Source of the DNA: a virus
DNA: 43,056 nucleotides
IMG/VR virus record: IMGVR_UViG_3300025112_000040
Location: 1 to 43,056 of that record
Strand: one strand, 5' to 3'
The position numbers and the translations under genes were made by a program. The notes beneath the pieces were generated by a model. That model saw nothing but the letters and a program-made list of their open reading frames with translations. It ran no database searches and had not been told where the DNA came from. How positions within the stretch are numbered: the first letter of the stretch is position 1; each line of letters starts with the position of its first letter. Positions 2,288 to 42,556 of the stretch are shown here, one piece after another.

Positions 2288-2304
2288 TATAATAAATTAT
2301 ACTA
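2285..2304 (+). promoter_or_regulatory. TAGTATAATA element inside a 9-bp inverted repeat
   Basis: TAGTATAAT (2285-2293) and ATTATACTA (2296-2304) are perfect reverse complements separated by AA. The left arm is the recurring promoter-like element and includes the stop codon of the upstream gene. The tail tube gene starts 36 bases after the TATAAT. The symmetry could mark an operator, or a promoter readable in both directions, rather than an RNA hairpin, because the 2-base loop is too tight. Confidence 0.6.
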
Positions 2305-2328
2305 CATAAATTATGGAGTAATTTTAAC

Positions 2329-4404
2329 ATGGCAATATATCGAAGCGACCAAGCACAACTTACATTTGCGGCAGAAACTGCACAAGGGGGAGACCCCGAG
2401 ATGATGGAGGGGACTTTAGCACGTACTCCTACAGCAACATTAGGAGCAGCCGCTGCAGCAGGTAGTAGAACTATAACCCTAAACGCAGAATTTAATGTTC
2501 TTAATACAGCAGCATCAGCAGCAGTGTTATGTTTCGGAGATACAACTGATGATGCTGCAGATACAGCTATCTCATTTGATAATGGTAGTACTGGTGACCC
2601 TGAATTATATATAGGGCAGGTTTTACAAGTAGGTAGTGAAAGCATGCAAGTTACTGCTATAGGTGGGACAAGTAACAGAGATGCAACTGTCGTTAGGGGA
2701 TTTGAAGGTAGTACTGCTGCTGCTGACCATGTTGATAATGCCGCAGTCAAATCAAGATTTACTCCCGGAGATATAATTAGGATAGGGACTATTGCTGGTA
2801 CAGCTGGAGATACAGTAGTACCTCATGAAGTACGTAGAGTTGAGAGTCAATCTGGGACAGCACTTGTTTTAGACAGGCCTCTAGCTTTTGCACATGCAAG
2901 TGGACAAACTGTACTATGTATTTCTGCTATTGGTGAAGTAGACTCTGCTCATGGTATTAGGAATGATAATGATAAATATATTACATTTATTCCGGGGGTT
3001 TACGAGACAGTAGATACACCGGACCCAGAGATGAGTATTGAAGGAAGAAGATTCCTTAGTACACAATCTAAAAGAAACTGGTCTGCAGCCTACCCCGGAC
3101 AACAGTCATTAACTGGTTCAGTTAGTGGGATTACTTTATTAAATGGGTGGCCACTAAGATTCCCAATTGGAACTGTAACAACTGTTCCATCAACTGTCGT
3201 TACTGATACTATACTTTTATCCGCAGCTGCGAGTAAGGGGGATGTTTATGTTGCTTGTGACAATGGTAGTGGTGGTGCTGCTTCTACCTTAGCAGCCGGA
3301 GATTATATTCAAATAGTTGAAGCTGATGGTACTAATTCAGAAGTTAGACGAATATTAAAAGATACTAGTGATACTTTTAAATTAAATTACCCATTACATT
3401 TTGACCATGCAAATAATGCTGTAGTAAATGAGGTTACTCATAGTGCTAGTATATATTATGAACACACAATAACTGAAGCAACTAGTCTTGATACTGTATC
3501 ATGGCATGTCCATATGAAAGATAGTTCTGAAACTACAACTAGGAACTTTGACAGAAGATATGTAGGAGGAATGATAGGTTCATCTACAATATCTGCTGAA
3601 GAAGGTGGAATGGTGGCTATGTCGTGGGATAGTGTAAATTTCCTTAACATGGTGCATAACCAACAAAACCAAAAAACTGTTGGTGGTACTGCTTTAGGAG
3701 ATGATTATGTAGGTGCTAGCGTTGCCGCTAACCTACCTAGATTTGGGCTAATGCACGCTATTGACCATGATGACATAGGTATGCCAAGTCACAATGGAGC
3801 AGCTCTTAATGATGGTACTGGATATCCAACTACTTCTCCATATTATTTCTCAGAGGGAACTATAAAATTCTTTGGACAAGAGTTTGCTAGAATTAGAAGT
3901 TTTTCAATATCTATTTCAAATGGTGAAGAGGCAAGATATTATATTGGTAAACAAGGACGAAGAGCAAGAGGTCCTTATGAAATAAGAGAAGGTGCTAGGG
4001 AATATGGTATGTCTGCAACAGTTGCATTACCAGATGCAGATGTTACAGCAGCAGCAACAGCTGCTAATGCAGACCAAGGTGGGGCCTTAGAACTATTTAG
4101 ACAATTACTATTAGAAGGTGATTATGGTGCCGGTGGTGGAAGTATATACAGAAGAGGTATGACAGCTACGCTGAAGTTTGAAAGAGGTACAAATGATTAT
4201 ATAATAATAGACATACCTACATCAACTACAGCTGGTTCCCCGACAGAGGGCACAGATAATACAAATCAATTAAATAAACAAGGTATTTTTATAAATAGTG
4301 CTGCACACGACATAACGGGTGACCAACAGCTAGAAGTAGATTTAGATATGTTGTTTAGGAGTTTAAAGATAACAATAAGAGACAATGTACCTGTATATCC
4401 ATAA
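2329..4404 (+). CDS. major tail (tube) protein with inserted beta modules
   Basis: A 691-residue protein in the position and style of a tail tube subunit. The C-terminal third contains a tube-like run (RIRSFSISISNGEEARYYI, then an EGAREYGMSATVALP segment) typical of long-tailed phage tube proteins. It is longer than ordinary tube proteins because of inserted beta-rich modules. One, at residues 46-140, reads LYIGQVLQVGSESMQVTAI ... VVRGFEGSTAAA and recurs four times in the fibre protein at 7057. It starts at ATG 2329 after GGAG. The next gene is the tail chaperone, the standard order (tube, chaperone, tape measure). A long non-contractile tail is inferred because no sheath gene is seen. Confidence 0.7.
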   Translation: MAIYRSDQAQLTFAAETAQGGDPEMMEGTLARTPTATLGAAAAAGSRTITLNAEFNVLNTAASAAVLCFGDTTDDAADTAISFDNGSTGDPELYIGQVLQVGSESMQVTAIGGTSNRDATVVRGFEGSTAAADHVDNAAVKSRFTPGDIIRIGTIAGTAGDTVVPHEVRRVESQSGTALVLDRPLAFAHASGQTVLCISAIGEVDSAHGIRNDNDKYITFIPGVYETVDTPDPEMSIEGRRFLSTQSKRNWSAAYPGQQSLTGSVSGITLLNGWPLRFPIGTVTTVPSTVVTDTILLSAAASKGDVYVACDNGSGGAASTLAAGDYIQIVEADGTNSEVRRILKDTSDTFKLNYPLHFDHANNAVVNEVTHSASIYYEHTITEATSLDTVSWHVHMKDSSETTTRNFDRRYVGGMIGSSTISAEEGGMVAMSWDSVNFLNMVHNQQNQKTVGGTALGDDYVGASVAANLPRFGLMHAIDHDDIGMPSHNGAALNDGTGYPTTSPYYFSEGTIKFFGQEFARIRSFSISISNGEEARYYIGKQGRRARGPYEIREGAREYGMSATVALPDADVTAAATAANADQGGALELFRQLLLEGDYGAGGGSIYRRGMTATLKFERGTNDYIIIDIPTSTTAGSPTEGTDNTNQLNKQGIFINSAAHDITGDQQLEVDLDMLFRSLKITIRDNVPVYP
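2464..2748 (+). repeat. copy 1 of a VGQ...TVTRG beta module (protein level)
   Basis: Encodes residues 46-140 of the tail tube protein, with core text YIGQVLQVGSESMQVTAI followed by TVVRGFEGSTAAA. The pattern [Y/F]xxGQ-hydrophobic-[E/D]xMxVxxI...T[L/V]xVxRGxxxSxAAxH is shared with four segments of the 7057 gene. Similarity is at protein level, not long DNA identity. Confidence 0.6.
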
Positions 4405-7056: not shown

Positions 7057-10000
7057 ATGGCTATATCAGTTGCTAATCCAACCAGTGTCGTAAAACGACC
7101 AATTATATCTTATTGGAATGGAACTAAATGGAAAGATTTTGTTTCCTTTCGGGGTACAACAGAAACTAAACTAACCGCTACGTTAAATGAAGCTTTAGAT
7201 ACTAGTGAAACAGATATAACAGTTTCATCCAGTGCCGAATTTTATACTGGTCAACTAATTAAATTTGGTTCTACCTCGGACGATAGTGTGGCTAATACCG
7301 AAGAATTGGAAGTGGTTTCTATAACAGATACTACAACTATTGTGGTTGCTGGTAGAGGAGGTTCTGGTCAGGCAGCAAGTAGTGGGGCATCAATTTATGT
7401 TGCTGTCAGTGACGTTATCAAATGGGAATTGGTAGATATTTTACATAGCCCTATGAGGATGAAAGTAACTTTAAATAACTCTTCTAGGGACCCTTTTTCT
7501 AATAGTGGCAGTAGTGCTAAAGGACCTCATTCTGAAAAACTCGGGTCTTTCTCTCCTATAAAAGTTCGGGATGGGGATACCCACCACATATATTTTTATG
7601 GGATAGCTTATGACTCAAACGATACTTATAAGGTTGGCTGGGGTCAAATATTAGAAATAACAGCATATGATTTTGTTCAAGAACTAAAAGATAATACGGG
7701 TAATGGGAATAGTTATTTATTGGATAATGATGTGGACTTATTTGATGCTGTTGTACCTCATGGCACGGGAGCCGATAATTTAAATATCAAACAGAGGCTG
7801 TGGCAAACAGCAGCTGACCCTCCTCAAGGGTACATAAAAAGTAGAAGTGGACTAATCAAATCTTTGGTTGCTGAGTACAGTCAAAATCTAACTACTCCCG
7901 GCGACGCTAATTCGGGAGATACAATAAGATTTACTGAATCCGTGGCTGCTCTGCCGAATGCTAATGTAGAGAATTTCTCATATCCTATAGGTACCCTGAG
8001 TTCCATTTTGTCACATATACAAAATGCGGCTGTGGCGGAGCCACATACTGCTGGGGACAGTACCGAAATAACACATGGTTATGATTATTATGTAGATGCT
8101 AACTGGGGAGGAGCTACGGGGGTGGATACCTCAGCAAATGGAACAAATGCTTCTTTAGCAACTCATAAACCTACAGCATTTTTTAATTATTTTAAGCGAG
8201 GAAACCGACCTTCTTCAACAGGTTCACCAGCAACTTATGGGCTAAGTGTTCATTATCCGTCTCCAGATTCTACTGCAGATGGGGATTTCTCTAAAACTAC
8301 TATGAAAGTACCTATGACGTACTATGCTGTATCTAGACCCAAAAGTGAGGTTTTTACAGATGCTAATGTGACCTATGTAGAAAAAATGACCCACGAGTCT
8401 GAAATAGAAGGGGCGGCAATAAAAGAGACGATAACCTATCCAGATTCTGGTATCTTTGAACTTATTGCCATAAAATCTGCGGCAAATTTTGATGATTTTG
8501 TAGATTTATTAGAAGCCTCTAATAAAAATTTAGAAGCAGGTGTCCCCGGTATAGAAAGTGCAGAATACTTAAAAGTTAAAATAGGGTTATTAAATGATGG
8601 TGATGGTATAAATGCTTCAGACACAGCAGTTGTAGTGGATACCCCAGATGTTTCAGGTTTTTATGTGGGGCAATTTATTGAAATAGGGACCGAGGTAATG
8701 AAAGTGACTGCAATTAACACGGGTACTAATACCCTTACTGTTACTAGAGGTGAAACACACCCATCCTCTCAAACATTACATTCAAGTGGTGACTATTATG
8801 AAGCAGTAACACCCGATGCAGACTCACATTCTAACAATGCAGAAATTTACGCCTTAGATGTAGCGAGATTACAATGGACTTCACTCCAAGGAGGTACTGC
8901 TACAGTAGCTTCAGATGCAACAGCCTATATATTAATCTCCGATGCTGACGAAAGAATAAGTGAAAACTCAACTTACTGGTCGGATGGTACAACTTTTAAA
9001 GGTCAGACATCTTCTAGTGCGTCTTTTCAAATTAAGTCAAGACCAAGAAGTACTTATGCGGTAAGAAGAAGTTTATCTATGTCTCAAGGATATATAAAAG
9101 ACTCGAATGCTGTAAGAAAAATCGTTTTTAGTAAATTAGAAAGAAAAACCGAAGATATTGTAAGGGCAAGAATTCAAACCTATGAAAGACCCTTTTTTTA
9201 TTTTGATGATAGTCCAGCTAGTATAGATGCTACATCAGGGTCACAACAAACAATTAATTTATCTGCTAGTGTGAATCCACAAGCTTATGGTGTAACAGCG
9301 GGTATGTTAGTTGTGAAACTAGATGCAAATAATGCAGCTACAAACGTATATGGTTATGTAACCCAGACAACCGCTGCTACTGTTATAGTCACTTGGTCTT
9401 ATGGAACTGTTTCAGCGAGTGATACATTAAGATATTATGTTCCCGTTAGGGCAGGCGATTATATACATGTAAGAAATGATTTAGTTAATTTAGACCAAAC
9501 GATGTTAGTTACTAAACTTGACCATAAAGATGAGGGGGGCGTTTTAGTCACCCGATTGGATACTGTAGGCGTAGCAGCATCCCAAAAAGTGGGGGGTGGG
9601 GCTAAACGTCGGGCTCCTGTAGACATGGCGGACAGGATTCTTGAAGAAGAACAAGCAGCAGACCAGAGACAAAGAGATGCTATGGCCCTTAGCAAGCAGA
9701 CAATAACTATAGATAGCACCTTTTCAGCATCTAATGAATCTACAGTAGCTTGGACAGCTGGGACCATCTATATAGGTACTAAAAAATATTCTATTGCAGC
9801 CGGTAATACGGGTACAATGTCTACCCAAGTTAGCCCCTATATTCTATATTATGAAATAGGGAACTCGACTTTTCAAATAAAAACCCTTTCTGCTTATGAG
9901 ACGGTTTCAAAATATAGTCCTTTTCATGTAAGACTGGGGACAACTGAATATGATATTCCTTCTGCAAGTTGGAGATTGGCAAATAATGTACAAGGTGCTA

Positions 10001-12030
10001 ATGCAACAAAAATTAAAGCTGAATCTTTATTAAAAGGTCAATCTCTTCCTGCCTCATTATTACAAAAGGGAAACCAACAATCATCATCAAATTTAAGTTT
10101 TGAACCTACTGGCACTTCTGGTGAATATAATAAGATAAAATTTGGACAAAAGGGTTCTATAGGTAGTGATGCTACAATTTCATACGCAGATAATACAACT
10201 GAAACGGTTGTCCATAGTGCCACAGCTACAGCTAGTTTGGGGAATAGTTCTACGGTTTCTGGGGGTAAGGTTACTCTAGCTGCTGGAGTTAACTATATAT
10301 ATAAAGAGGTTGGAAAACCTGAACTTACTACAATGAGAGTAGCAAATGATTCTACTTCTGAACAAACTTTTGAAGTAACTTCTACTTCTAATATGTATGT
10401 TGGACAAATGTTACAAATTTCGGAAGAGAATTTAACTGTTGCTAGTATTACAGATGGGGACACTGTTGAATTAAATAGGGGACAAAATAGTACTTCAGCA
10501 CAAACGCAAGCTTTAAATAATGCTGCAGGTAACCCTGTAAAAATATATGCCGTAAATTCTGAAAACAAAACCCTAAAAATATCCTCAACTTATTCGGACG
10601 TATATCAAGATGACCGAATGTTGTTAGCTACAGTTATAGTTCCAAGTTCAGATGATGGTTCGGATTCCCCATCTATCTTTCCATTTACAGGTAATGAAGC
10701 AACCATCTCGTCGGAATCTATTGCGGGTGGAGGTGTTAAAGCAGGTAATATACAAGCTAATTCGGTTACAGCAGCTAAACTTGAAGCTAACTTAGTATTG
10801 GCTAGCAATATCAAAACTAGTGCTACAGTTAATGATGGTAGTGGCACAGACCAAGCAGGGTTGCTTATAAATAATTCAGGAATCTATGGTTATGATGCTG
10901 GAGGAACTGCACAAGTTAGTATATCAGCTACGACTGGAAGAGTTGTAGGGGGAGGCGGGTCGGTTGATATAAGTTCTGAGGGAGTTCGGATTATAGATGA
11001 TACTGACGATATAACAACAACTTCTTATCTAACCTTTGGGGGCTCAAATAAAAGTACTGCATCTGGAACAACACTTGCTGAAGCTTTAGATACAAGCGAA
11101 GATGAGATTGATGTGGCGGATGGTAGTGTATTTAGGGTGGGTCATATAATTCTGATTGATAGTGAACAAATGCTTATCTTATCTATTGCTTCCAACACCC
11201 TTACAGTTACTCGTGAATATGCCAGTACAAGTGCAGCTACTCACACCAGTTCTACAGCTATAAGTATTATGGGACAAGTTACATCATATATGACAGTTTG
11301 GGATGGGGGTTCAGGAGCCACTCCGAATATGTACTTCTTAACAACTACACAGGAAGCAGGTAGTGGTTCAGGCTATAACACAAGCTATGCCCACCAATTA
11401 GTTATAGGTCCGGGTGAGGCAAACAAAACCATGTTTGTGGTACCTTCGTATACTGTAGACCTTGGGAATGATGGTGTGGTTTTAGGTAGTTCAACGCACG
11501 AATTTTGGGCTGTTTATTCAGCCTTACTTTTGGGTCAAGCTGGTTCAGCGGCAAATCCTTCCTTCTCTTTTAATGGAGATTTAGATACTGGGATGTATCG
11601 GTCGGCTGCTAACTATTTAGCTTTTGCTACAGGAGGTGCTCTTAGAGGTAGATTTTATAGTGGTGGGCTTGTATTAGATACCATGGGGACTACTTCAGGC
11701 ACAGATGTGATTGTTGATGGTTCTAACGTAGTACAGAAGAAGTCATCATCTAAAAGATATAAAAGAAATATAGTTGATATAGCATTAGATTCAAACAAAG
11801 TATATGACTTAAGACCTGTAGACTTTGAGTGGAATGAAAAATCTGCTACAGATGGCAAAAAAGACATCGGATTGATAGCAGAAGAAGTAGCAGAAATCCT
11901 TCCTCAGATAGTAAATTATAATAACGACAAGACACCAGAAAGCGTTTCTTATGATAAACTATCAGTAATATTATTAATGGAAATTAAAAAACTAAAAGAA
12001 GAAATAGAAAAACTAAAGGAGAACAAATAA
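7057..12030 (+). CDS. tail hub / receptor-binding fibre with C-terminal S74 chaperone domain
   Basis: A 1657-residue multidomain tail-tip protein, the largest gene here. The N-terminal 250 or so residues look like a baseplate hub module (MRMKVTLNNSSRDPF, then IKVRDGDTHHIYFYGIAY and EITAYDFVQELKD). The long middle part is Ser/Thr/Gly-rich and beta-predicted, with four copies of a VGQ...TVTRG module. The last ~97 residues match a peptidase S74 intramolecular chaperone: SSKRYKRNI with the Ser/Lys pair, VYDLRPVDFEWNEK, DIGLIAEEVAEILP, and a terminal coiled coil (LMEIKKLKEEIEKLKE). This domain trimerises fibres and then cuts itself off. A single protein thus appears to combine hub and fibre. It likely sets host range. 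Confidence 0.75.
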   Translation: MAISVANPTSVVKRPIISYWNGTKWKDFVSFRGTTETKLTATLNEALDTSETDITVSSSAEFYTGQLIKFGSTSDDSVANTEELEVVSITDTTTIVVAGRGGSGQAASSGASIYVAVSDVIKWELVDILHSPMRMKVTLNNSSRDPFSNSGSSAKGPHSEKLGSFSPIKVRDGDTHHIYFYGIAYDSNDTYKVGWGQILEITAYDFVQELKDNTGNGNSYLLDNDVDLFDAVVPHGTGADNLNIKQRLWQTAADPPQGYIKSRSGLIKSLVAEYSQNLTTPGDANSGDTIRFTESVAALPNANVENFSYPIGTLSSILSHIQNAAVAEPHTAGDSTEITHGYDYYVDANWGGATGVDTSANGTNASLATHKPTAFFNYFKRGNRPSSTGSPATYGLSVHYPSPDSTADGDFSKTTMKVPMTYYAVSRPKSEVFTDANVTYVEKMTHESEIEGAAIKETITYPDSGIFELIAIKSAANFDDFVDLLEASNKNLEAGVPGIESAEYLKVKIGLLNDGDGINASDTAVVVDTPDVSGFYVGQFIEIGTEVMKVTAINTGTNTLTVTRGETHPSSQTLHSSGDYYEAVTPDADSHSNNAEIYALDVARLQWTSLQGGTATVASDATAYILISDADERISENSTYWSDGTTFKGQTSSSASFQIKSRPRSTYAVRRSLSMSQGYIKDSNAVRKIVFSKLERKTEDIVRARIQTYERPFFYFDDSPASIDATSGSQQTINLSASVNPQAYGVTAGMLVVKLDANNAATNVYGYVTQTTAATVIVTWSYGTVSASDTLRYYVPVRAGDYIHVRNDLVNLDQTMLVTKLDHKDEGGVLVTRLDTVGVAASQKVGGGAKRRAPVDMADRILEEEQAADQRQRDAMALSKQTITIDSTFSASNESTVAWTAGTIYIGTKKYSIAAGNTGTMSTQVSPYILYYEIGNSTFQIKTLSAYETVSKYSPFHVRLGTTEYDIPSASWRLANNVQGANATKIKAESLLKGQSLPASLLQKGNQQSSSNLSFEPTGTSGEYNKIKFGQKGSIGSDATISYADNTTETVVHSATATASLGNSSTVSGGKVTLAAGVNYIYKEVGKPELTTMRVANDSTSEQTFEVTSTSNMYVGQMLQISEENLTVASITDGDTVELNRGQNSTSAQTQALNNAAGNPVKIYAVNSENKTLKISSTYSDVYQDDRMLLATVIVPSSDDGSDSPSIFPFTGNEATISSESIAGGGVKAGNIQANSVTAAKLEANLVLASNIKTSATVNDGSGTDQAGLLINNSGIYGYDAGGTAQVSISATTGRVVGGGGSVDISSEGVRIIDDTDDITTTSYLTFGGSNKSTASGTTLAEALDTSEDEIDVADGSVFRVGHIILIDSEQMLILSIASNTLTVTREYASTSAATHTSSTAISIMGQVTSYMTVWDGGSGATPNMYFLTTTQEAGSGSGYNTSYAHQLVIGPGEANKTMFVVPSYTVDLGNDGVVLGSSTHEFWAVYSALLLGQAGSAANPSFSFNGDLDTGMYRSAANYLAFATGGALRGRFYSGGLVLDTMGTTSGTDVIVDGSNVVQKKSSSKRYKRNIVDIALDSNKVYDLRPVDFEWNEKSATDGKKDIGLIAEEVAEILPQIVNYNNDKTPESVSYDKLSVILLMEIKKLKEEIEKLKENK
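7180..7400 (+). repeat. copy 2 of the VGQ...TVTRG beta module
   Basis: Encodes LNEALDTSETDITVSSSAEF, then YTGQLIKFGS and a VVAGRGGSGQAASSG ending. It shares the exact 7-residue string EALDTSE, and the 14-base string GAAGCTTTAGATAC, with copy 5 near 11066. Confidence 0.55.
8611..8805 (+). repeat. copy 3 of the VGQ...TVTRG beta module
   Basis: Encodes FYVGQFIEIGTEVMKVTAI followed by TNTLTVTRGETHPSSQTLHS, the clearest match to the consensus module within the fibre protein. Confidence 0.6.
10366..10560 (+). repeat. copy 4 of the VGQ...TVTRG beta module
   Basis: Encodes MYVGQMLQISEENLTVASI followed by DTVELNRGQNSTSAQTQALN. The spacing of VGQ, the E/D-rich turn and the RG motif matches the other copies. 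Confidence 0.55.
11066..11271 (+). repeat. copy 5 of the VGQ...TVTRG beta module
   Basis: Encodes TTLAEALDTSEDEIDVADGS, then FRVGHIILIDSEQMLILSI and NTLTVTREYASTSAATH. VGQ is changed to VGH and RG to RE; the EALDTSE string is identical to copy 2. Confidence 0.55.
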
Positions 12031-26787: not shown

Positions 26788-28728
26788 ATGATAATAAAAA
26801 ATAATATAACCACACGTACTAATAGCACTTCCAATATTACAGACCAAGCAAACATTATTTTAACTCATAGGTATCTTTTAAAAAATTCTGATGACAAGGT
26901 AATTGAAACTCCTGAAGAACTGTTTCATCGAGTCTCTAATGCTATAGCTAAAATTGATTCAGATTATATGAAACTAGACGTAGAGGTTGAGCTGACAGCA
27001 AAAGATTTTTATTCGGTTATGAGTCGTTTAGAATTTATACCAAATTCTCCAACATTAATGAATGCAGGAACAGAACAAGGGACTCTATCTGCTTGCTTTG
27101 TACTTCCATTAGAAGATAGTATGGAAGCTATTATGAAGGCAGCAACTGATACTGCTATGGTTCAAAAGTTTGGTGGAGGTACAGGATTTGCACTATCTCG
27201 TCTTAGACCTAGAGGGGATAAAATTCAATCAACCCATGGGGTAGCTTGTGGTCCTATTGAAGTCCTAAAGACGTTATCAAGAGTATCTTCTATGATAACA
27301 CAGGGTGGTAAAAGGGATGGAGCAAATATGGCGGTAATGTCAATATATCATCCAGACATTCTAGATTTTATTGAGTGTAAAACAACTGAAGGAGAGATAC
27401 ATAATTTCAATATTTCTGTTGGGGTAGATTCTAATTTTATGAAAGCTGTTGAACACAATATGAACTATAATTTAATTAATCCTAAAACTAATCAAGTAGT
27501 CAGACAGCTAAATGCCCGAGAGGTATTCAATAAAATAATTGATGGTGCGTGGCTAAATGGTGAACCCGGCATGATATTTCTAGACCAAGTGAATAAAGAC
27601 AATCATGTTATAGAACAATATGGTGAGATGATTGCCACTAATCCTTGTGGAGAGCAACCACTTCTTCCAAATGAATCTTGTAATCTAGGTTCTATTAATT
27701 TAGCTAAATTTTACCAACAGTCTGATTCTGACTGGGAAGAAAAAATTGATTGGGCTAGATTAGAATGGGTGACTAGAACGTCTGTACATTTTTTAGATAA
27801 TGTAATTGATGCAAATAAATATGCGACACCAGAGATTGAAAAAATGACGAAGGCAACTCGGAAAATTGGATTAGGCATAATGGGTTTTGCGGACTTGCTT
27901 ATACAAATGCAAATTCCATATGGTTCTGACCTTGCTAGAAAAGTAGGAAGTGACGTAATGAAATCTGTAAGAGAATGGGCAGATGATGAGTCAAAAGCTT
28001 TAGCTAAAACTAGAGGAGTTTTTCCAGCGTGGGAGGGAAGTGATTACGATAAACAAAGTGAAGTTTATAGAAATAATTGTAGATTAACAGTCGCCCCAAC
28101 AGGAACAATATCAATGATAGCTGACACATCTAGTGGTATTGAACCTACATTTGCGTTAGCTTGGAAAAAACAAAACATATTAGAAGGTAAAACTCTAAAT
28201 TATGTAAATAAATATTTTGAAGCTGATGCTAAAAAGTATGGATTTTACTCAGAGGATTTAATGGACTATCTAGCAGACGGAGGTTCTTTAGCTACTGTGC
28301 CGGAAGTTCCAGATTGGGCTAAGGAAGTTTATGCTACAGCACCAGAAATATCTTCGGATGACCATGTTTTAATGCAAGCATCCTTTCAAAAGTCTTGTGA
28401 TTCAGGAATTTCTAAAACTATAAATTTTGCTAATTCTGCTACTAAAGAGGATGTGGAAGCTGTTTATATGCTTGCTTGGAGTGAAGGATGTAAGGGAATA
28501 ACCGTTTATCGAGCAGGTAGTAGAGAAAAAGAAGTATTAGTCAAAGGAAATACAGAGAAATCCGAACAACCAAGATTAGATGGTTTTAAAATTGAGAAGA
28601 ATTTCTTAGAAGAAAAAGAAACTTTCACAGTTCCACAACACAATTGTTGTGATAACCCTAACATAATATTTGAGTCTGGCTGCCACATCTGTAAAGCTTG
28701 TGGATGGAGTGCCTGTCCCGTTTCGTAG
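26788..28728 (+). CDS. nrdJ: class II (B12-dependent) ribonucleotide reductase
   Basis: A 646-residue reductase making deoxyribonucleotides. Visible class I/II signatures are [28 protein letters not shown] with the first active-site Cys, [35 protein letters not shown] with the thiyl-radical Cys and catalytic Glu, and [19 protein letters not shown]. No NrdB-type small subunit gene is present and the length fits monomeric NrdJ, so coenzyme B12 dependence is inferred. The C-terminus has a Cys cluster ([15 protein letters not shown]) likely used for thiol exchange. It sits inside the packaging module between TerL and portal. AGGAG precedes ATG. Confidence 0.88.
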
Positions 28729-29230: not shown

Positions 29231-31198
29231 ATGAAATTATCCGAATATCTACCACAAGTTCCCCAAATGCAACAGCAAATGGCGGATTTAAATAAACAAA
29301 TTAGTTTATTAGACGTTATGAAATCTTCTGGGGAGACTGGTGCAGCACCAACAATTGGGCTTGACCAAATTGTTAATACATGGGTCAGACATCAAATGGC
29401 ATATCGCCAACAATTGGTGCAAGACTTACAAACTGTGGCAATGTCTGTAGAAGAAATTAGAGGACCACTATCTCACATTACTGGGGAAGTTTTCCGAAGA
29501 GGGTTAGAAATTGTACCTAAAATTGAAAACCCAGATGTTGAACAAAAAGAAAGACTTCTTAAATGGTTAAAAGATTGTAATGTTTTTGACCAGAGTATGG
29601 AGGAGGTACTTAGACAATTTCACTTTGATGTAAATTCATTAGATGATGGATTTTTATATCTAGCCAAAGAATATAAGGATTCTGGGGATGGGAAAGTTAC
29701 TTCTAGACTTCAAGAAATTAGGAGACTAAACCCTGCCTTAGTAGAATTTGATTTAGACCAAGCAGGATTACCTAAGAACTCTCACTTTTTATGTCCTATA
29801 CATAGGGAAATTGTTCAAGAATCGGCTGGTACATGTATAAAGGACGACTGTGATGTGATTCTTCATCCTGCTATGTATAAGTATTATCATAGAAATCAAC
29901 ATATGTATTTCAGTGATTCTGAAATTATTCATTTATCTAAGTTTTCTCCATCAGAAACTTATGGGTGGTCACCTATACTTACCATTTTTGAAAAAGCTTT
30001 GACTTTGGTTGGTATGGATAAAAACCTATACAGATATTTCTTTGAAAGAAAAATGCCTGCAAGTATGTTGATGGTAACTACGGATGACCCAGAGAGTCTA
30101 CGTAGAGAAAGAGAGCATATAGCAGCCCAAACAAGGCTAGACCCTAACTATATACCTATGGTAGCTGTATCAGCACGAAACCAACGAGGAAGGGTAGATA
30201 TGGTAAGACTCTTCCATAATTTACAGGAGATGGATTACTTACCTGTCAGAGAAGAGGTTAGAGAAAGAGTCGCAGCTATGTGGGGGGTTACTCCAGCATG
30301 GCAAGGGGCACCAGAAGCTTTTGGAGGTTTGTCTACACAAACACAACAATTAGTTGTTATGAGTCGTGTGGTTGAAGGTGACCAAAGGTTATTTCAAGAG
30401 AAAGTAATTCCTCAATTATTAGAGGCTTTTGGTATAACAGATTATACTATTCAACTACCGCAACCAGAAGAAAAGGCTGAGAATACCCGATTAGCTTTTG
30501 CTCAACAAAAAATAGCTATTATAAATCAATTTGCGTCACTTGGATTTGATATAAAATTAAAAGAACAAGATGTCCCATTATGGGAAGCAGACTTTGTTAT
30601 TAGTGGAGACCCAATGCCAACTGCAAAGATGTCGGCTGAACAACAAGCATTAGGACTTGAACAACAGCGGCAACAGATGCAGATGGAACAAGAGCAGATG
30701 CAACAACAGCAAGAAGCTATGGAACAACAGGAAGCTATGATGGGTGGGGAAGAAATGCCACCGCCCGAAGAAGAAGGTGAAGATATACAAGCTATGGAGA
30801 AAGCTTATAAGCCTCCATCACAAAGAAAATTCAAGGGTAGAACTGGGGGAATAACACCAGACTGGCACGATAAAGGCGACCCGAGTGAGGAGAGAGATAT
30901 TGATGAGTATGCTGAGTCTCGGGCAAAGAAGAATGAAATAACTTTGTCTAAATCTTGGATTGAATCATTAGTTCAAAAAGGGTTTACAGCCCCTATTGTA
31001 AAAGAAGTTTCTCCAGATATGTCCCAGATGTGGTTTTCGGAAAATAGTGTAGACTATATAGCTCAATTATCGAATGATGGAATAACTACCGTAGAGAAGG
31101 CTATGTTTGGAGACCCCACAAGACTTAGTAGAAACAAACAAGAAAAACCTAAAGCTACTAAACCTACCGGGATAGAGATAGATGACAACGATTACTAG
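29231..31198 (+). CDS. portal protein
   Basis: A 655-residue portal, the dodecameric DNA channel of the head. It is recognised by the overall pattern: N-terminal VNTWVRHQMAYRQQLVQD, ITGEVFRRGLEIVPKI, a long stem region SKFSPSETYGWSPILTIFEK, and helices after MVRLFHNLQEMDYLPVREEV. Residues about 185-215 carry a Cys/His insertion (LCPIHREIV ... CIKDDCDV), possibly a zinc site. Residues about 475-515 are Gln/Met/Glu-rich, then an acidic and flexible tail of 140 residues, longer than typical. Its end overlaps the next gene by 17 bases, coupling it to the topoisomerase/CCA protein. Confidence 0.82.
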   Translation: MKLSEYLPQVPQMQQQMADLNKQISLLDVMKSSGETGAAPTIGLDQIVNTWVRHQMAYRQQLVQDLQTVAMSVEEIRGPLSHITGEVFRRGLEIVPKIENPDVEQKERLLKWLKDCNVFDQSMEEVLRQFHFDVNSLDDGFLYLAKEYKDSGDGKVTSRLQEIRRLNPALVEFDLDQAGLPKNSHFLCPIHREIVQESAGTCIKDDCDVILHPAMYKYYHRNQHMYFSDSEIIHLSKFSPSETYGWSPILTIFEKALTLVGMDKNLYRYFFERKMPASMLMVTTDDPESLRREREHIAAQTRLDPNYIPMVAVSARNQRGRVDMVRLFHNLQEMDYLPVREEVRERVAAMWGVTPAWQGAPEAFGGLSTQTQQLVVMSRVVEGDQRLFQEKVIPQLLEAFGITDYTIQLPQPEEKAENTRLAFAQQKIAIINQFASLGFDIKLKEQDVPLWEADFVISGDPMPTAKMSAEQQALGLEQQRQQMQMEQEQMQQQQEAMEQQEAMMGGEEMPPPEEEGEDIQAMEKAYKPPSQRKFKGRTGGITPDWHDKGDPSEERDIDEYAESRAKKNEITLSKSWIESLVQKGFTAPIVKEVSPDMSQMWFSENSVDYIAQLSNDGITTVEKAMFGDPTRLSRNKQEKPKATKPTGIEIDDNDY

Positions 31199-34100
31199 GA
31201 TTACTGAATTATATCAATTCATAAAAAAGGAACAAGAATCCCCGAAACAGTCTTTTAAATATTCTGACCAAGAATTAAAAGATGCCCATGCTTTCGCTGA
31301 CGCTATTATTCAAGATATGAATGATAGAGATATTGAGTATGATAAATCCTTGAATCCTATTGATATTGAAGATGCATATAGTCTTGAAGATTTCGGGTTA
31401 GATGAAAAAGAATTATCTAAAGCAGAAGATGAGCAACAAAATATTGCTACAAAGACACCAGTGTCTGGTGGTTTTATAAGCCCTCAAACCCCTATTCCAG
31501 AGAATGCTGTATATGTAAAAGACCAACCTGCTCCTAAAGGTACACCTACTTTTAAGGGACCAAAAGGTGGGGAGTATTGGATAGAGAGCGTAGAGGAAGG
31601 GGCTGCATTAGGAAGTCATGGTGACAAGGACGTTCAAGCCACTATCCAAAAATGGAGAAAGTTTATTACAAATGATGGGAAGAAAAGAGGAAAGCGAGTT
31701 AACTTTAAACCAAAACATGAACCAGTTGGGGGAGAATTAGACCTTACTAAGCATCTCGTATATAAAGTAGAGTTTACTAAAGATTTTAAATCCGAAGACA
31801 TTCCATGGGAAATTGTTCTAAACGCTTCAGCGGGAACTTCTCCTACAGGTAAATATAGGTCCATAATACCTAAAACTGCAACTCATGTATGGATTTCAAC
31901 TGATAGTCGAGCCCCAGTACAAGCTATGTATAAAACAAAAGGAAGTGACGTAACGAATAGAGTCTTTACTCCTGAATATGCACATCAAGCTGATGTCAAA
32001 AACTATGCTAATCATAAAAAAGATATTCCAAAAATTAGAGAGATAGCTTCAAATCTAGAGAAAAAACCCCTATCAGACTTAACTGAAGAAGAGAAAGTTA
32101 TATCATTAGCCTCGCACTTGCCTATTCGACATGGAGGTGAAAAGGATTCCGGAAAAAAAGGGGTAGGGCTTCTCTCATTACGGAAGAAACATATACAAAT
32201 AATAGGTGATACAGCCCGATTAGATTTTATGGGGAAAGGTAATATTCCTCAATCTTATAATACTTCTGACCCTAGAATGGTTGAACTTATAAAAAACAAT
32301 CTCGAAGGTAAGGGAGATGAGGATAGACTTTTTGAGGCAACCGTGGCTCGTGATAATTCTTATTTAAAGAACACTTCTGCTTCTGAAACTATACATCTTC
32401 ATAATTTTAGACATGGGGCTGCAACAAGAGCTGCTGAGAAGTCTGTAGAAGAATTTAATAAAGCTGGTGAATCTATGACTTTAGCTGAAGCACAAAAGAT
32501 TATTGGTAAATCTGCCGCTGAACTTTTGGGGCATAAGAAAAAAACAGGTAGTGGGGAATACGAGACTGATACATCTTCAACTTGGTCTAATTATATACAC
32601 CCCGAAGTTATTCATGGGGTAAACAGAAATTTGATTACAGATTGGGATGATTCTATAAATAAATCTTGGGTTACAAATCCTAGAGGTTCTCTAGATAGTA
32701 AACGCAAAGGAAAGATTTATAAGGAAGATGGTGGAGGTTTTGGTGATGGGGGAGGTACAGTATTTACTTCGACTAACTCGGGAATTTTTTCACCTACCTA
32801 TGGTAATACAGGGAAAAAGAATAAGAAAAAAAGAACTGGTATTGAGCGTCTTGGGTCTTTTGTGAGTAATAAATCCCCAGAGAAAAAGATGGTAAAAGAT
32901 TCACAGGTTCTCTCTAAAGCTCTTCCACCAAATGCGGTATATTCTTCAACTGAAGCTCCCCCTAAAGGAGCTATGACATTTGTAACAGAAAATAGAAAAG
33001 TGGAGTATTGGTTACAACCTACGAAAAACATTCCGGCAACTCCAAATGTGGGGGACATAATTAGTGATAATCCACAAGCCCAGCAAATTCTGCAGGACTT
33101 AGGGCAACAAGGAACCCCTTATGTAGTAGGGGGTGGTGTACGAGATATTTTAATGGGAAAACCTAATAAAGATATAGATATCGAAGTGCATGGAGTACCT
33201 ATGGATAAGTTACAGTCCATTATGGAAAAACATGGAGGGAAAGCAGACCAAGTGGGTAAACAGTTTGGAGTGTTTAAAGTAGGTAATGTAGATGTAGCAT
33301 TACCTAGAACAGAAACTAAAACAGGAACGAAACACACAGATTTTGATGTACAATCCCATACTTCATTACCATTAAAACAAGCAGCCCAAAGAAGAGATTT
33401 TACTATGAATGCTATGATGTATGATGTAAAAAACCATAAAATATTAGATTTTTTTGGTGGACATGATGATATTGTAGCCAAAAAGATTAAACATATTAAT
33501 GGTGAGACTTTTGTAGAAGACCCATTACGTGTCTATAGAGCCGCACAGTTCGCAGGAAGATTCGGATTTTCAATTGATGATTCTACTAAAAAGTTAGCTA
33601 GGTCGATGGATTTGTCTGATTTACCTAAAGAACGAGTTTTTGAGGAGATATCAAAACTTTTATTAAAATCACCGGAACCTTCCATAGGATTACAGGCTTT
33701 AGATGATATGGGTGTCTTAGAAAAGCAGATGCCTGAATTAAAGCAGCTACAAGACACGCATCAAAGAGGGGATTATCATGCGGAGGGGGATGTTTTTACA
33801 CATACTAAAATGGTTGTTGACGAAGCAGCACGAATCAGCCAACGATTTAAACGAGAAAAAGACCGTCAGATTATTATGCTTGCGGCTCTGTGCCACGATT
33901 TAGGTAAACCAGCTACAACTGATGAACAAGGCAGAGCCTTGGGTCATTCAAAAGCTGGACTAGAACCTACTAAGCGATTGTTAAATAGATTCACAACTGA
34001 TAAAGAAATCATAGATACGGTTTTACCTTTAGTAGAACATCATTTAGTTCCATTGAGTTATCATCGTACTCAAAGTAATGTGAAAGATTCTACGTTTAGG

Positions 34101-34934
34101 AAATTAATTAATACTCATGGAAATCATTTTTTGCATTTATTGTCAGCGGTTTCTGAAGCAGATAATGCTGGGAGGTTACACAAACAACCTGATGGTAAAA
34201 AAATAAAACCAACTAATGAAGCAAATGAATGGTTTAGAGATAATCTTAATAGAGTAAGGGCTGAAACAGGAACTACATCTGAAGGTAAACTCAAACCATT
34301 AGTTACTGGTAAAGACTTGCTTGATTTAGGTTTTGAACAGGGTACACGAATTGGTGAAGTATTACGAGATGTTCAACGACAGCAAGAAGAAGGTAAATTA
34401 ACAGATAAGCAAGAAGCAATTGATTATATCCAAAATATTCATAAGTCTTATGTTAGTGAGTTTGCCGATTTTGTTAGAGGCAATAGCCCTAGCAGAAAAA
34501 TGATTCAAAAGAGTTATAAATTTACTCCATTAACTTTAGAACTAGTAAGTTGGGTTAAAGATGCACTTCTGAAAGATGAAGCTAAGTTTAGACAACAAAC
34601 TAGTGGAGAAGATATAAACCCACAAACCAAAGAAATTGAGGGTAGGCGTAACCCAGTTGAGTTTGATGCTGAACCTGATAAAAACGCAGCAATTGAACAA
34701 AAAGATATGGAACGAAAGATTCGTAATCTAGATGATGACGAAGATATAAAAGGCAACAAACCTGATGAAAAAGGGGATGCTTCCCAAGTTGCTCCAGCGG
34801 GATTAGAAATCCAGTTGACTGATTGGGGTTCAGGTTCTGAAAAAGGACCACTGGTTACAGGTGGATATAAAGATAAAAAGAAAGGAAAAATAGCAGAACT
34901 AGAGGATGAGACTAAGGAAAGGTCTTTCAGATAG
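31182..34934 (+). CDS. type IB topoisomerase fused to CCA-adding tRNA nucleotidyltransferase
   Basis: A 1250-residue polyprotein coupled to the portal gene. Residues 140-480 read as a eukaryotic/bacterial-type topoisomerase IB: the cap motif KTATHVWISTDSRAPVQAMY, then the catalytic set R316 (LPIRHGG), K352 (DFMGKGN), R410 (LHNFRHGAAT), H451 (LLGHKKK) and Tyr471 (NYIHPEV). Residues 630-1090 read as a class II CCA-adding enzyme: GGGVRD (650-655), D664/D666, RRDFTMNAM (737-745), EDPLRVYRAAQFAGRFGF, then an HD phosphohydrolase domain with H874, H905/D906 and D994, as in E. coli Cca. The same tag, NAVY...KG..TF...EYW, precedes each enzyme (108-133 and 584-610). The N-terminal 100 and C-terminal 150 residues are acidic and unassigned. 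A virion-packaged or ejected role is inferred, not shown. Confidence 0.85.
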   Translation: MTTITRITELYQFIKKEQESPKQSFKYSDQELKDAHAFADAIIQDMNDRDIEYDKSLNPIDIEDAYSLEDFGLDEKELSKAEDEQQNIATKTPVSGGFISPQTPIPENAVYVKDQPAPKGTPTFKGPKGGEYWIESVEEGAALGSHGDKDVQATIQKWRKFITNDGKKRGKRVNFKPKHEPVGGELDLTKHLVYKVEFTKDFKSEDIPWEIVLNASAGTSPTGKYRSIIPKTATHVWISTDSRAPVQAMYKTKGSDVTNRVFTPEYAHQADVKNYANHKKDIPKIREIASNLEKKPLSDLTEEEKVISLASHLPIRHGGEKDSGKKGVGLLSLRKKHIQIIGDTARLDFMGKGNIPQSYNTSDPRMVELIKNNLEGKGDEDRLFEATVARDNSYLKNTSASETIHLHNFRHGAATRAAEKSVEEFNKAGESMTLAEAQKIIGKSAAELLGHKKKTGSGEYETDTSSTWSNYIHPEVIHGVNRNLITDWDDSINKSWVTNPRGSLDSKRKGKIYKEDGGGFGDGGGTVFTSTNSGIFSPTYGNTGKKNKKKRTGIERLGSFVSNKSPEKKMVKDSQVLSKALPPNAVYSSTEAPPKGAMTFVTENRKVEYWLQPTKNIPATPNVGDIISDNPQAQQILQDLGQQGTPYVVGGGVRDILMGKPNKDIDIEVHGVPMDKLQSIMEKHGGKADQVGKQFGVFKVGNVDVALPRTETKTGTKHTDFDVQSHTSLPLKQAAQRRDFTMNAMMYDVKNHKILDFFGGHDDIVAKKIKHINGETFVEDPLRVYRAAQFAGRFGFSIDDSTKKLARSMDLSDLPKERVFEEISKLLLKSPEPSIGLQALDDMGVLEKQMPELKQLQDTHQRGDYHAEGDVFTHTKMVVDEAARISQRFKREKDRQIIMLAALCHDLGKPATTDEQGRALGHSKAGLEPTKRLLNRFTTDKEIIDTVLPLVEHHLVPLSYHRTQSNVKDSTFRKLINTHGNHFLHLLSAVSEADNAGRLHKQPDGKKIKPTNEANEWFRDNLNRVRAETGTTSEGKLKPLVTGKDLLDLGFEQGTRIGEVLRDVQRQQEEGKLTDKQEAIDYIQNIHKSYVSEFADFVRGNSPSRKMIQKSYKFTPLTLELVSWVKDALLKDEAKFRQQTSGEDINPQTKEIEGRRNPVEFDAEPDKNAAIEQKDMERKIRNLDDDEDIKGNKPDEKGDASQVAPAGLEIQLTDWGSGSEKGPLVTGGYKDKKKGKIAELEDETKERSFR

Positions 34935-38273: not shown

Positions 38274-39611
38274 ATGGCTAACCCAAGTTTATCGGAATAT
38301 CTGGCACAGTCTCAACGAGGTTTGTATCAGTCTGTATTCGGTCCTGAATACCTACAGAAACAAACATACTTTACAGTTGACACTGCTACAGGAATATTCA
38401 ACACAACATACGGTAGAAAAGTCTGGCAGGCTCTAAACAACCAAACCAGATTCTTCAACGCTATCCCAAGAGTGGTTTGGGGTAACACAGCTGGTTGGAG
38501 GGTAAGAACTGATAGAGGTTCTAGCCGTTCAAGACCAGTAACTGAAACTGGAAGTTTGCCAACAGTTGACGTTTCCAACATTGAAACAGTATCTAGTTTA
38601 CCTAGAATAGTTTCAACTACATTCGGTGCTTCAGTGAAGTCAGTCTTTACTGCACAACTCGAAGGTGGTGTTGGTGATGTTCTAGCTTTGGAAAACGAAA
38701 ATGCTCAGTTAGACCACATAAAAGAAATAAACGAAGAGCTTCTAGCTGGTTCAGGATACTTATGTTCAGCTGGTGCAACAACAACCTTTACAGTTCCGGC
38801 AGCTATTGCTAAACACTTTAAGATTGGTGATGCAGTATCACAACATGACAACTCAGCAGGTGGATTTGACAGAACCTCTGGTTCCGTTGTTTCTGCTGTA
38901 AACACCTCAACCGGTGTTGTTACAGTTGCTTCAGGTACTACATTTGCCAACTCAGACGTAGCATTCATCTATTCAAGAGCTGGTATGACATCAATTGATG
39001 ATGTTGTGGCAGAAGATGGTTCCGCTATCGGTGGTGGTACAAGCTCAAGAACTAGAGCATACGACCTAACATTAGGTGGTAGAACTGCTGGTGATTGGAA
39101 CGCAGCTGCTTCTGTTTCTTATAACTCAGGAACAGGACGAGCTCTAAGTCTAAACTTACTAGATACCGCAATCCAGAAAATTAGAACAAATGGTGGAGAA
39201 CCAAAACTAATACTTTTGGGTCACGACCAATACTTCAACTTAGAAAGATTGCTTAATAGTAACCAGAGATACTTAGGACAAGAAGAGTACCAAGTGGGTG
39301 TAGGTTCTGAAAGAACTTTCCCCGGTACAAGAACTGGACTAGTTCTAGCTACTTACCAAGGTATCCCAATCATCCCAGACGCTGACGTAGCTAAGTCTGT
39401 ATCAACAGCTGATGCAGTTCTTGGTTCAAATGTTTACGTTTTGGATACTGATTACATAGAAATCGCTGTTGCTCAACCTACGCAGTATGTAGAGAACAGA
39501 GATTACTTCGCAGCAAACGCACTAGTTGTTAGAGGATTACTCTACACTATGGCTGAAATGCGATGTAAGAACATTTTTGTACAAGCAAAAATAGCTGACC
39601 TAAACTCATAA
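38274..39611 (+). CDS. major capsid protein (HK97-like)
   Basis: A 445-residue protein of HK97-fold type, positioned after scaffold and before a strong terminator. It begins MANPSLSEYLAQSQRGLYQS. The segment VWQALNNQTRFFNAIPRVVW and then GWRVRTDRGSSRSRPVTETG resemble the N-arm and E-loop region; DHIKEINEELLAGSG marks the spine-helix/P-domain stretch; QYVENRDYFAANALVVRGLL near the end matches the closing A-domain strands. The codons are smooth and C-rich compared with neighbours (frequent AAC and TTC), as expected for the most abundant virion protein. GGAG precedes ATG. Confidence 0.8.
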   Translation: MANPSLSEYLAQSQRGLYQSVFGPEYLQKQTYFTVDTATGIFNTTYGRKVWQALNNQTRFFNAIPRVVWGNTAGWRVRTDRGSSRSRPVTETGSLPTVDVSNIETVSSLPRIVSTTFGASVKSVFTAQLEGGVGDVLALENENAQLDHIKEINEELLAGSGYLCSAGATTTFTVPAAIAKHFKIGDAVSQHDNSAGGFDRTSGSVVSAVNTSTGVVTVASGTTFANSDVAFIYSRAGMTSIDDVVAEDGSAIGGGTSSRTRAYDLTLGGRTAGDWNAAASVSYNSGTGRALSLNLLDTAIQKIRTNGGEPKLILLGHDQYFNLERLLNSNQRYLGQEEYQVGVGSERTFPGTRTGLVLATYQGIPIIPDADVAKSVSTADAVLGSNVYVLDTDYIEIAVAQPTQYVENRDYFAANALVVRGLLYTMAEMRCKNIFVQAKIADLNS

Positions 39612-40903: not shown

Positions 40904-42556
40904 ATGACTACACAAGCTATTCAAACAGAGGTGGGGGAAATTCCTAATCCAGCAAACTGGTTAGATAACAGTGATGAACCTTCTGTTCTTGATTTAGGTG
41001 ACCCAAGTATATTATTCTTAGAAAAATCTCTAGATGGTAAGGTATCTCGAAAAGATATTTCACCAGCATTGGATGAGTACAAAAGATTACATAAGGCAGG
41101 AATTGCTTCCCCAGCCGAATTATTAACCTTATCTAGGGCTTATCCTGAAAATGGTATTTACACCAAGGCATTAGCTAAGATGGATATAGCTGATGATGAC
41201 AAACTTGTTATTGGGGGACCGGCTTCGATTGAATTAGTTGACAGAGAGGGTCACTTGATAACAACAAATGCCTTATCTAAAGCCTTTGATAAATATATGG
41301 ATAATTTTAGAACCAGAAATGCAATGGTTCTTCATTCTGATGTACAAGTAGGTTGGGCTCTACCTGCTTACATAAGTAAAAGTGGTCAGATATTTAAGTC
41401 AGGAGTGAATGGGAATGGGTTATTCTTTATAACCGAGCTTAGAAATGACACAAAAATCTCAAAAAAGGTAGCCGAACAAATACATAGTGGTAAATTAAAG
41501 AGCTATAGTATTGCTGGGAGTGCAATAAAGACTCAAAATATACAAAAAGGACTACAAGATGTTATGCAAGTAGATGAATTAGAGCTTGCAGAAGTAACAG
41601 TTTGTGAGAAAGGTGTTAATCAAGGAGCTTCTTTTGATATCATAAAGGCTGATAATGCTGCAACTTCAACCTGTATAGATGGAAGTTGTTTAGTAAAGGA
41701 TGAAGAAGATGAAGAAGAAAATAAAAAGTTTCAAAAATCTGAGGTCAGTTATCAGAAAGCTACTGAAGGACAATTAAAACATGGCTTTAGTTGTGGTACA
41801 TGCGATTTTTTCGTGAAAGAAGATGGGAGCTGTTCAATAGTAGAAGGCTCAATAGATGCTGATGATTGGTGTACAAGACACAGTGGAAACACACATGAAG
41901 GTCCATCGGATGATGAACCAGTTCAAAAACAGGAGGTGAACTTAATTATGACGAAAGATGGAGAGATTGATTTTACTAAATCATTTTTAGATTATGTAAA
42001 GAAAGAGATGCCCCAAGATGGAATTGAGGCGTTTCCTATTTTATATAACACTCAAGCAAGACAGGAAGAGCATCACAGGCTACTTGACAAGTATGGATTC
42101 CCTAGTGAGCTGGAACCTGAATATGCCAGAAACACCCCCGTGTCAGAGGAAGACCCTACAGGACATAGGTATGTTCCGTGGGCAGTGAATGCGGCTGGAG
42201 ACAGTATAGGTATGCGTCATTACGATGAAGCTTTGACTGTTCCTCAAGTTGGGAAGTACCAAAAAAGAGGTGTGGTTGAAGGAGGTAATTCAAATGAGAC
42301 TCCTGTATCTGAAATGAATACAACTGAGGGGTTTAATAATTTACTTTCTGCTATAACAGCTGAAAAAATAAAAGCCAGTGGAACCCAAGACTCAGGGGAA
42401 ATTGAAATAAAAATTTCAAAAGCTGATGATTTTTTCAACTGGATGGCACAAGACCAAAAACATTTATATAAAGAGTCTTGTCCTTGTGAGTTCTGTTTTC
42501 AGAAATCTTCTGATTATAAAGGAACGGTTGAGAAGCCTACAAATTTTTTAGATTAA
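40904..42556 (+). CDS. prohead maturation protease, zero-frame product
   Basis: A 550-residue protein with a phage prohead serine protease domain at residues about 105-250: GGPASIELVDREGHLI, VLHSDVQVGWALPAYI with the candidate catalytic His, NGLFFITELRNDT, then KLKSYSIAGSA with the candidate Ser and LELAEVTVCEKGVNQGASFD closing the fold. After an acidic linker, residues about 290-335 carry a four-Cys domain (CGTCDFFVKEDGSC ... DDWCTRH) like a small iron-sulfur module. It lies downstream of the capsid gene, not upstream as in HK97. The end carries a -1 frameshift signal, so a 594-residue form is also expected. The tail includes another Cys cluster (CPCEFC). Confidence 0.75.
   Translation: MTTQAIQTEVGEIPNPANWLDNSDEPSVLDLGDPSILFLEKSLDGKVSRKDISPALDEYKRLHKAGIASPAELLTLSRAYPENGIYTKALAKMDIADDDKLVIGGPASIELVDREGHLITTNALSKAFDKYMDNFRTRNAMVLHSDVQVGWALPAYISKSGQIFKSGVNGNGLFFITELRNDTKISKKVAEQIHSGKLKSYSIAGSAIKTQNIQKGLQDVMQVDELELAEVTVCEKGVNQGASFDIIKADNAATSTCIDGSCLVKDEEDEEENKKFQKSEVSYQKATEGQLKHGFSCGTCDFFVKEDGSCSIVEGSIDADDWCTRHSGNTHEGPSDDEPVQKQEVNLIMTKDGEIDFTKSFLDYVKKEMPQDGIEAFPILYNTQARQEEHHRLLDKYGFPSELEPEYARNTPVSEEDPTGHRYVPWAVNAAGDSIGMRHYDEALTVPQVGKYQKRGVVEGGNSNETPVSEMNTTEGFNNLLSAITAEKIKASGTQDSGEIEIKISKADDFFNWMAQDQKHLYKESCPCEFCFQKSSDYKGTVEKPTNFLD

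Follow-up and report, generated by a model that had tools for sequence, protein, structure and literature searches.

A type IB topoisomerase and a predicted CCA-adding enzyme joined in one viral polyprotein behind the portal gene

Why should a virus join a DNA topoisomerase and a tRNA nucleotidyltransferase in a single protein, and why encode that protein directly behind its portal? The question is raised by the IMG/VR virus record IMGVR_UViG_3300025112_000040, of which positions 1 to 43,056 were analysed here (the whole stretch of 43,056 nucleotides, hereafter ‘the window’). An open reading frame (ORF) at 31182–34934 combines both enzymes with parts of what appears to be a structural carrier. 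In the reading that we consider reasonably probable, this ORF encodes a late head-module effector polyprotein whose carrier takes a type IB topoisomerase (TopoIB) and a CCA-adding enzyme into the procapsid, both being ejected at infection.

The original prediction, made from the DNA letters, described one uninterrupted frame of 1250 residues overlapping the portal gene by 17 bases, and the coordinates agree: the frame starts with ATG and runs unbroken from 31182 to 34934, and the portal ORF ends at 31198. GC content, overall and at third codon positions (GC3), is even along the entire ORF, which is laid out as follows.

31182–34934, plus strand: whole ORF of 1250 residues, comprising an N-terminal part, leader 1, TopoIB, a Gly-rich carrier part, leader 2, the CCA enzyme and the C-terminal carrier part.
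31500–31592, plus strand: leader 1 (residues 107–137), ahead of the topoisomerase, located by a leader hidden Markov model (HMM).
31857–32651, plus strand: type IB topoisomerase domain (residues 226–490) with R316, K352, R410, H451 and Y471 (Pfam, invariant pentad, fold, PDB profile search).
32667–32885, plus strand: first carrier part with WVTNPRGS, the Gly-rich GGGTVFTSTNSGIFSPTYG, the basic KKKRTGIERL and SPEKK (carrier HMM, motifs).
32886–34459, plus strand: CCA block (ORF nucleotides 1705–3278), most likely acquired horizontally (DNA mosaic; synonymous divergence (dS) of 0.71 against saturated neighbours).
32928–33020, plus strand: leader 2 (residues 583–613), ahead of the CCA enzyme (leader HMM).
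33120–34451, plus strand: predicted class II tRNA nucleotidyltransferase (residues 647–1090; Pfam, PHROGs, PDB matches, motifs).
33792–34058, plus strand: HD domain (residues 871–959) with an intact CHDLGKP (Pfam, motif).
34443–34928, plus strand: C-terminal carrier part (residues 1088–1249; carrier HMM, relatives, DNA mosaic).

Is the first enzyme truly a topoisomerase? The predicted R-K-R-H-Y set lies at exactly the positions first claimed (R316, K352, R410, H451, Y471), within a region whose residues 277–455 match Pfam Topoisom_I over cut-off (E=1.5e-13). All five residues are invariant across 15 topoisomerase domains, mostly 20–28% identical to that of the window, and belong to the just 11 invariant columns of this alignment. 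A profile search of the PDB returned five topoisomerase sequences (6z01, E=2e-23; 2f4q, E=3.5e-18), the top match being Caldiarchaeum TopoIB (2e-23), and matches in a viral library include the topoisomerases of phages Motura and PaBG. Structure comparison likewise assigned this half to the TopoIB fold rather than another one: an AlphaFold2 model of the region (mean predicted local distance difference test score, pLDDT, 73) matched human, archaeal, variola and Deinococcus TopoIB at E values of ~1e-10 to 1e-11. The catalytic fold would be shared by a tyrosine recombinase acting in DNA integration or resolution, the HNFRH motif is similar to recombinase box II, and L085 (one of the relatives, numbered with an L throughout), with the enzymes in reversed order, matches Phage_integrase instead of Topoisom_I. 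The window protein, however, matches Topoisom_I only, its PDB profile matches are the five topoisomerases, the nearest recombinase in the fold search (XerH) reaches only E=9e-4 as opposed to ~1e-11 for TopoIB, and an upstream segment aligns with Deinococcus TopoIB. The fold search and the PDB profile matches led us to reject the recombinase, which we regard as highly improbable.

The second half had been proposed to be a complete class II CCA-adding enzyme with an HD domain, and each element was recovered. Pfam identifies PolyA_pol at residues 647–769 (E=5.7e-23), PolyA_pol_RNAbd at 795–854 (E=1.1e-8) and HD at 871–959 (E=1.3e-10), all over cut-off; in PHROGs, residues 647–1060 fall into the tRNA nucleotidyltransferase family (E=6e-79); and the class II motifs GGGVRD, DID, RRDFTMNA, EDPLR and LPKER are intact, as is the HD motif CHDLGKP. 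Since the PDB matches comprise proteins called poly(A) polymerase as well as CCA-adding enzymes, we regard full CCA specificity as likely rather than established. Sequence separates class II CCA enzymes poorly from the poly(A) polymerases of bacteria, and the best PDB matches carry the latter name, so that a poly(A) polymerase, a partial (C- or A-only) polymerase or an enzyme acting on another RNA has to be weighed. We judge this unlikely: the phage family matched is tRNA nucleotidyltransferase, the templating motif is present, and an HD domain is likewise found in the CCA enzyme of E. coli.

Both halves appear to be maintained as proteins. In the window's pairs, the ratio of nonsynonymous to synonymous divergence (dN/dS) is ~0.14–0.16 for either enzyme, indicating purifying selection; it ranges from 0.14 to 0.18 across CCA domains and from 0.15 to 0.17 for the topoisomerase in the pairs window–L053 and L008–L015.

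Is the pairing itself more than an accident? Counted as distinct complete sequences among the matches listed, the window arrangement (architecture A: topoisomerase, carrier, CCA enzyme, carrier) occurs at least once. At least three sequences join topoisomerase, CCA enzyme and the C-terminal tail domain of the portal (C-tail) in one ORF, with the portal ORF shortened and the carrier separate (B), and in at least eight the enzymes are reversed, giving CCA enzyme, topoisomerase and portal C-tail (C). The topoisomerase without a CCA enzyme is joined to the carrier in at least eight further cases and to the portal C-tail in at least three (D). Every complete CCA-bearing ORF in this set also holds a topoisomerase (12/12), and the ORFs with a CCA enzyme alone are all cut by contig ends. 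Two other viral lineages thus have the pair as well, one of them with the enzymes swapped in order, and none of these complete CCA ORFs lacks the topoisomerase; a chance fusion does not account for it.

How the window came by its version can be read from its DNA. Nucleotides 12–1717 of the ORF are ~71% identical to the topoisomerase-only relatives L053/L054, and nucleotides 3349–3735 are 80–84% identical to L053/L054/L007; nucleotides 1705–3278, a 1.57-kb block missing from L053/L054/L007, match the CCA block of lineage B (L002/L003/L004) at 79–82% identity. A second SPxRKM copy in the C-terminal carrier part (34485–34502) flanks the insert. When the window is compared with L002, the CCA block has a dS of 0.71, and the values for terminase, ribonucleotide reductase, portal, exonuclease and major capsid protein range from 1.5 to saturated; the window topoisomerase is only ~21–26% identical to that of lineage B. 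Given these mosaic identities and a dS that is low next to other genes of the same two viruses, the CCA block most likely entered the gene horizontally and in frame after the lineages had split, recreating the pair. An assembly chimera of two co-occurring viruses, which would render the fusion an artefact, would also place a CCA block closer to another lineage than its flanks are, and the exact architecture comes from one record among the matches listed. Yet both joins are in frame, the block is ~80% identical to known relatives instead of identical, and the pairing is found independently in many other contigs and in two other arrangements, which makes a chimera very unlikely.

What does the position of the gene suggest? 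The surrounding head module contains the following features.

29231–31198, plus strand: portal protein (Pfam, PHROGs).
~30890–31102, plus strand: portal C-tail domain, preceded by MEKA (30794–30805) and followed by VEKA (portal comparison).
38274–39611, plus strand: major capsid protein, with haloarchaeal Druskaviridae as nearest known relatives (PHROGs, phage-record search).
40904–42556, plus strand: prohead protease of the Peptidase_S78 family, a candidate processing enzyme (domain match).

The carrier consists of the Gly-rich segment GGGTVFTSTNSGIFSPTYG, a basic KKKRTGIERL..SPxRKM segment and the C-terminal 150 residues. In most relatives it forms an ORF without any enzyme, located behind the portal and ahead of a small zinc-ribbon ORF and an exonuclease. 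The portal-adjacent position had been part of the original prediction, and the survey of homologues confirms it: the slot between the portal and exonuclease, capsid protein and protease is kept in nearly every relative with contig coverage. The group is large, as at least 374 IMG/VR stretches encode a related capsid protein. Among phage records, the portal finds matches only in haloarchaeal Druskaviridae and the capsid protein finds these plus one Methanofastidiosa virus; portal and capsid protein show affinity to haloarchaeal viruses, whereas PolA shows affinity to bacterial phages.

Several further genes were seen around this region. A ribonucleotide reductase gene lies between terminase and portal in the window virus (26788–28728) and in relatives. 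An acyl-CoA dehydrogenase-like gene separates carrier and zinc-ribbon gene in L134 (644–1846), and a gene for a BMP/PnrA-like substrate-binding lipoprotein follows the carrier in L076 (6894–8042; Pfam match), L084 (6154–7302) and L085 (12769–13914). In L024, a near relative of L015, the topoisomerase–carrier ORF is split into two frames (7965–9173 and 9305–10039; 402 and 244 residues), which may reflect loss of the enzyme or a contig error.

The content of the slot varies. A scan with the carrier motifs recovered, among the matches listed, long ORFs that have other domains at their N-terminus or next to them. HNH and PAP2 domains are supported in L199. In L246, L281, L199 and L282, the cargo shows a conserved YRG...ExE pattern reminiscent of ADP-ribosyltransferases (ARTs); we call it ART-like only, since it rests on this pattern and neither Pfam nor PDB profiles nor the fold lend support (model pLDDT 48; best fold match ParT, E=0.14). 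HExxH motifs recognised by eye in some relatives would make their cargo zincin-like, and profile searches did not support this assignment. L225 resembles the topoisomerase along part of its length. As separate observations, the carrier ORFs of L199 (763 residues), L192, L242 and L282 have a match to part of the window's protease ORF as well, and those of L193, L188, L229, L254 and L245 carry a long N-terminal region that in some contains repeated IQKIGYPD..YPKGF units; a scan of L193 and L245 for known families gave no match.

A second feature common to these proteins is a leader of ~30 residues, NAVYVKDQPAPKGTPTFKGPKGGEYW and variants thereof, located ahead of each of the two window enzymes and of many other cargos. 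An HMM built from 15 seed copies found 33 sites at E<=0.01, all in topoisomerase/CCA, carrier or unannotated post-portal cargo ORFs, and no site in shuffled decoys. Applied to the 103 ORFs of four archaeal-virus loci, the same HMM ranked leaders of HCTV-5 gene 114 and HVTV-1 genes 115/116 first (E from 4e-4 to 0.06). In the reverse test, a druskavirus leader HMM ranked four cargo ORFs of the window group first (0.015–0.37; best decoy 8.5). The zeta-toxin polyprotein encoded by HCTV-5 gene 114 (L291, 8812–12693) has two more leader-like copies at its C-terminal end.

Could the polyprotein be processed? The pattern Phi-x-K-[A/S] is enriched in the S78 protease and other head proteins, and in most portals xKA/S follows a variable linker. 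The portal ORF of lineages B and C stops shortly beyond xKA/S, and it is the enzyme ORF that there ends with the portal C-tail. Compared with random positions, Phi-x-K-[A/S] is overrepresented before WITNPRG (7/8 vs 1.5, p=0.001), after SPxRKM (9/23 vs 3.7, p=0.005) and before the portal C-tail (9/21 vs 4.7, p=0.02). Before the leaders there is no enrichment (4/16 vs 2.3 by chance, p=0.2), leaving processing uncertain; with this mixed result, the hypothesis of Phi-x-K-[A/S] as a cleavage site is suggestive. The HK97 cut site K103/S104 is reportedly a precedent.

Taken together, we infer packaging, ejection, processing into separate enzymes and the roles of the enzymes as follows. The carrier (Gly-rich/basic part and C-terminal part) would bring both enzymes into the procapsid beside the portal, the S78 prohead protease would perhaps cut the polyprotein into separate enzymes at Phi-x-K-[A/S] sites, and both enzymes would be ejected with the DNA at infection. 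The topoisomerase might then relax viral DNA so that transcription and replication can begin their first round, although relaxation of entering DNA is a guess. The predicted CCA enzyme would rebuild host tRNAs at their 3′ ends, possibly to offset the loss of CCA tails through defences or decay; a role in tRNA repair is plausible, given that Cas12a3 immunity strips tRNA CCA tails (PMC12851939) and that CCA-adding enzymes of jumbo phages have been interpreted as tRNA repair (PMC7824862). As no tRNA gene was found in 11 records, three of 81–82 kb among them, the substrate is likely host tRNA, and the idea that the enzyme serves viral tRNAs was rejected.

The slot looks like an exchangeable head load released at infection because relatives hold other enzymes, or none, in this place. 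The enzyme-free carrier, the swaps in the slot, the shared leader and the S78 protease lend more weight to the original prediction that the protein is packaged in the head and ejected, even if this stays a conjecture. Alternatively, the enzymes could act late in the producing cell: fusion to a head protein would merely place them at the portal, where the topoisomerase would remove supercoils ahead of the terminase during packaging and the CCA enzyme would keep tRNAs usable. Such a role would fit the late-gene position beside the portal. Still, it leaves unexplained the HNH, PAP2 and other domains that relatives carry in the same slot and the leader held in common with haloarchaeal head polyproteins, and most relatives do without the enzymes. 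We therefore consider action in the producing cell a distinctly less likely option and retain delivery by the virion as the preferred reading.

Several observations weigh against that reading. Besides the occurrence of the exact window architecture in a single record among the matches listed and the lack of Phi-x-K-[A/S] enrichment before the leaders, the specificity of the leader HMM is partly circular because its seeds come from proteins later counted. In the lineage C polyproteins (L075, L078, L084–L089), the HD motif reads YHN in every copy examined; this Asp-to-Asn change means that HD activity is not conserved in the reversed-order lineage and that what is conserved is nucleotidyl transfer rather than the HD reaction. 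The topoisomerase shows a dN/dS of 0.56–0.66 in two other pairs. Finally, scans of genome contigs for capsid protein and terminase found no relative; with these scans empty, PolA pointing to bacterial phages and portal and capsid protein pointing to haloarchaeal viruses, no host is claimed.

If the enzymes are indeed virion cargo, a TopoIB and a tRNA-end repair enzyme would be delivered before any viral gene expression, the latter giving the virus a direct answer to defences that take CCA tails off tRNAs. The leader would constitute a testable packaging signal, in haloarchaeal viruses as well as in a much larger group known from sequence only, and the exchangeable slot would allow new ejected effectors to be found by position. 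More tentatively, the portal-linked carrier and the leader tag might represent a general loading system for exchangeable ejected enzymes in a large virus group whose heads are related to those of haloarchaeal tailed viruses, with TopoIB plus CCA enzyme as a recurring load and the CCA enzyme as a pre-made antidote to host CCA-tail removal, a possibility that we deem rather doubtful as a whole.

How does this protein compare with known systems? As separate genes, free-standing phage TopoIBs (Rhizobium phages, PaBG, Motura) and free-standing phage CCA enzymes (PMC7824862) have been described; RHph_I42, the one TopoIB-bearing Rhizobium phage tested, gave no PolyA_pol match. For poxviruses, TopoIB and poly(A) polymerase are named as virion enzymes, the topoisomerase having been undetected in the study concerned (PMC1540416). 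Like the proposal made here, this places a TopoIB and a template-independent RNA nucleotidyltransferase in a virion; unlike it, the two are separate proteins of an unrelated virus, and poly(A) is made instead of CCA.

With regard to position, MuF polymorphic toxins of temperate phages resemble the window in swapping effector domains on a portal-adjacent head protein (PMC5576092). However, Pfam and PHROGs gave no match to a MuF domain in the window ORF or the adjacent ORFs scanned, and the window cargo looks like an aid to infection, not a weapon against competitors. Druskaviridae share the neighbourhood of portal, protease and capsid protein, a related portal (27–28%), a related capsid protein and related leader segments. 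Their head modules hold zeta-toxin polyproteins between portal and capsid (HCTV-1 gene 109, HCTV-5 gene 114, HVTV-1 gene 115), HCTV-5 also having ART and sialidase genes. They differ from the window in their zeta kinase and ParB nuclease, in having ART and sialidase as neighbour genes and in their haloarchaeal hosts.

Of the kinds of protein described so far, phage polyvalent proteins come closest (Iyer et al. 2017, PMC5512222). As in the window, polyvalent proteins are large proteins that join unrelated enzyme domains among the head genes of portal–terminase viruses; they are predicted to be packaged and injected, and ARTs and zincin-like peptidases are typical domains (PMC5512222). The window ORF combines at least two disparate enzyme domains in one polypeptide, encoded among head and portal–terminase genes; a Pfam scan found no peptidase domain in it, a domain that is common, not required, in polyvalent proteins. 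In the description of this class, topoisomerase occurs just in a reference title, CCA is absent from the text, Pol-beta nucleotidyltransferases are listed for conjugative elements only, and archaeal examples are called scarce (PMC5512222). The window group differs in that its modules have a leader in common and are found within or next to a conserved carrier. The original prediction knew of no phage system pairing the two activities, and our search of the open-licence literature for topoisomerase IB, tRNA nucleotidyltransferase and bacteriophage likewise found no joint description or earlier report, which is weak evidence. On the best reading, TopoIB plus CCA enzyme is thus a new enzyme pair within the polyvalent-type proteins.

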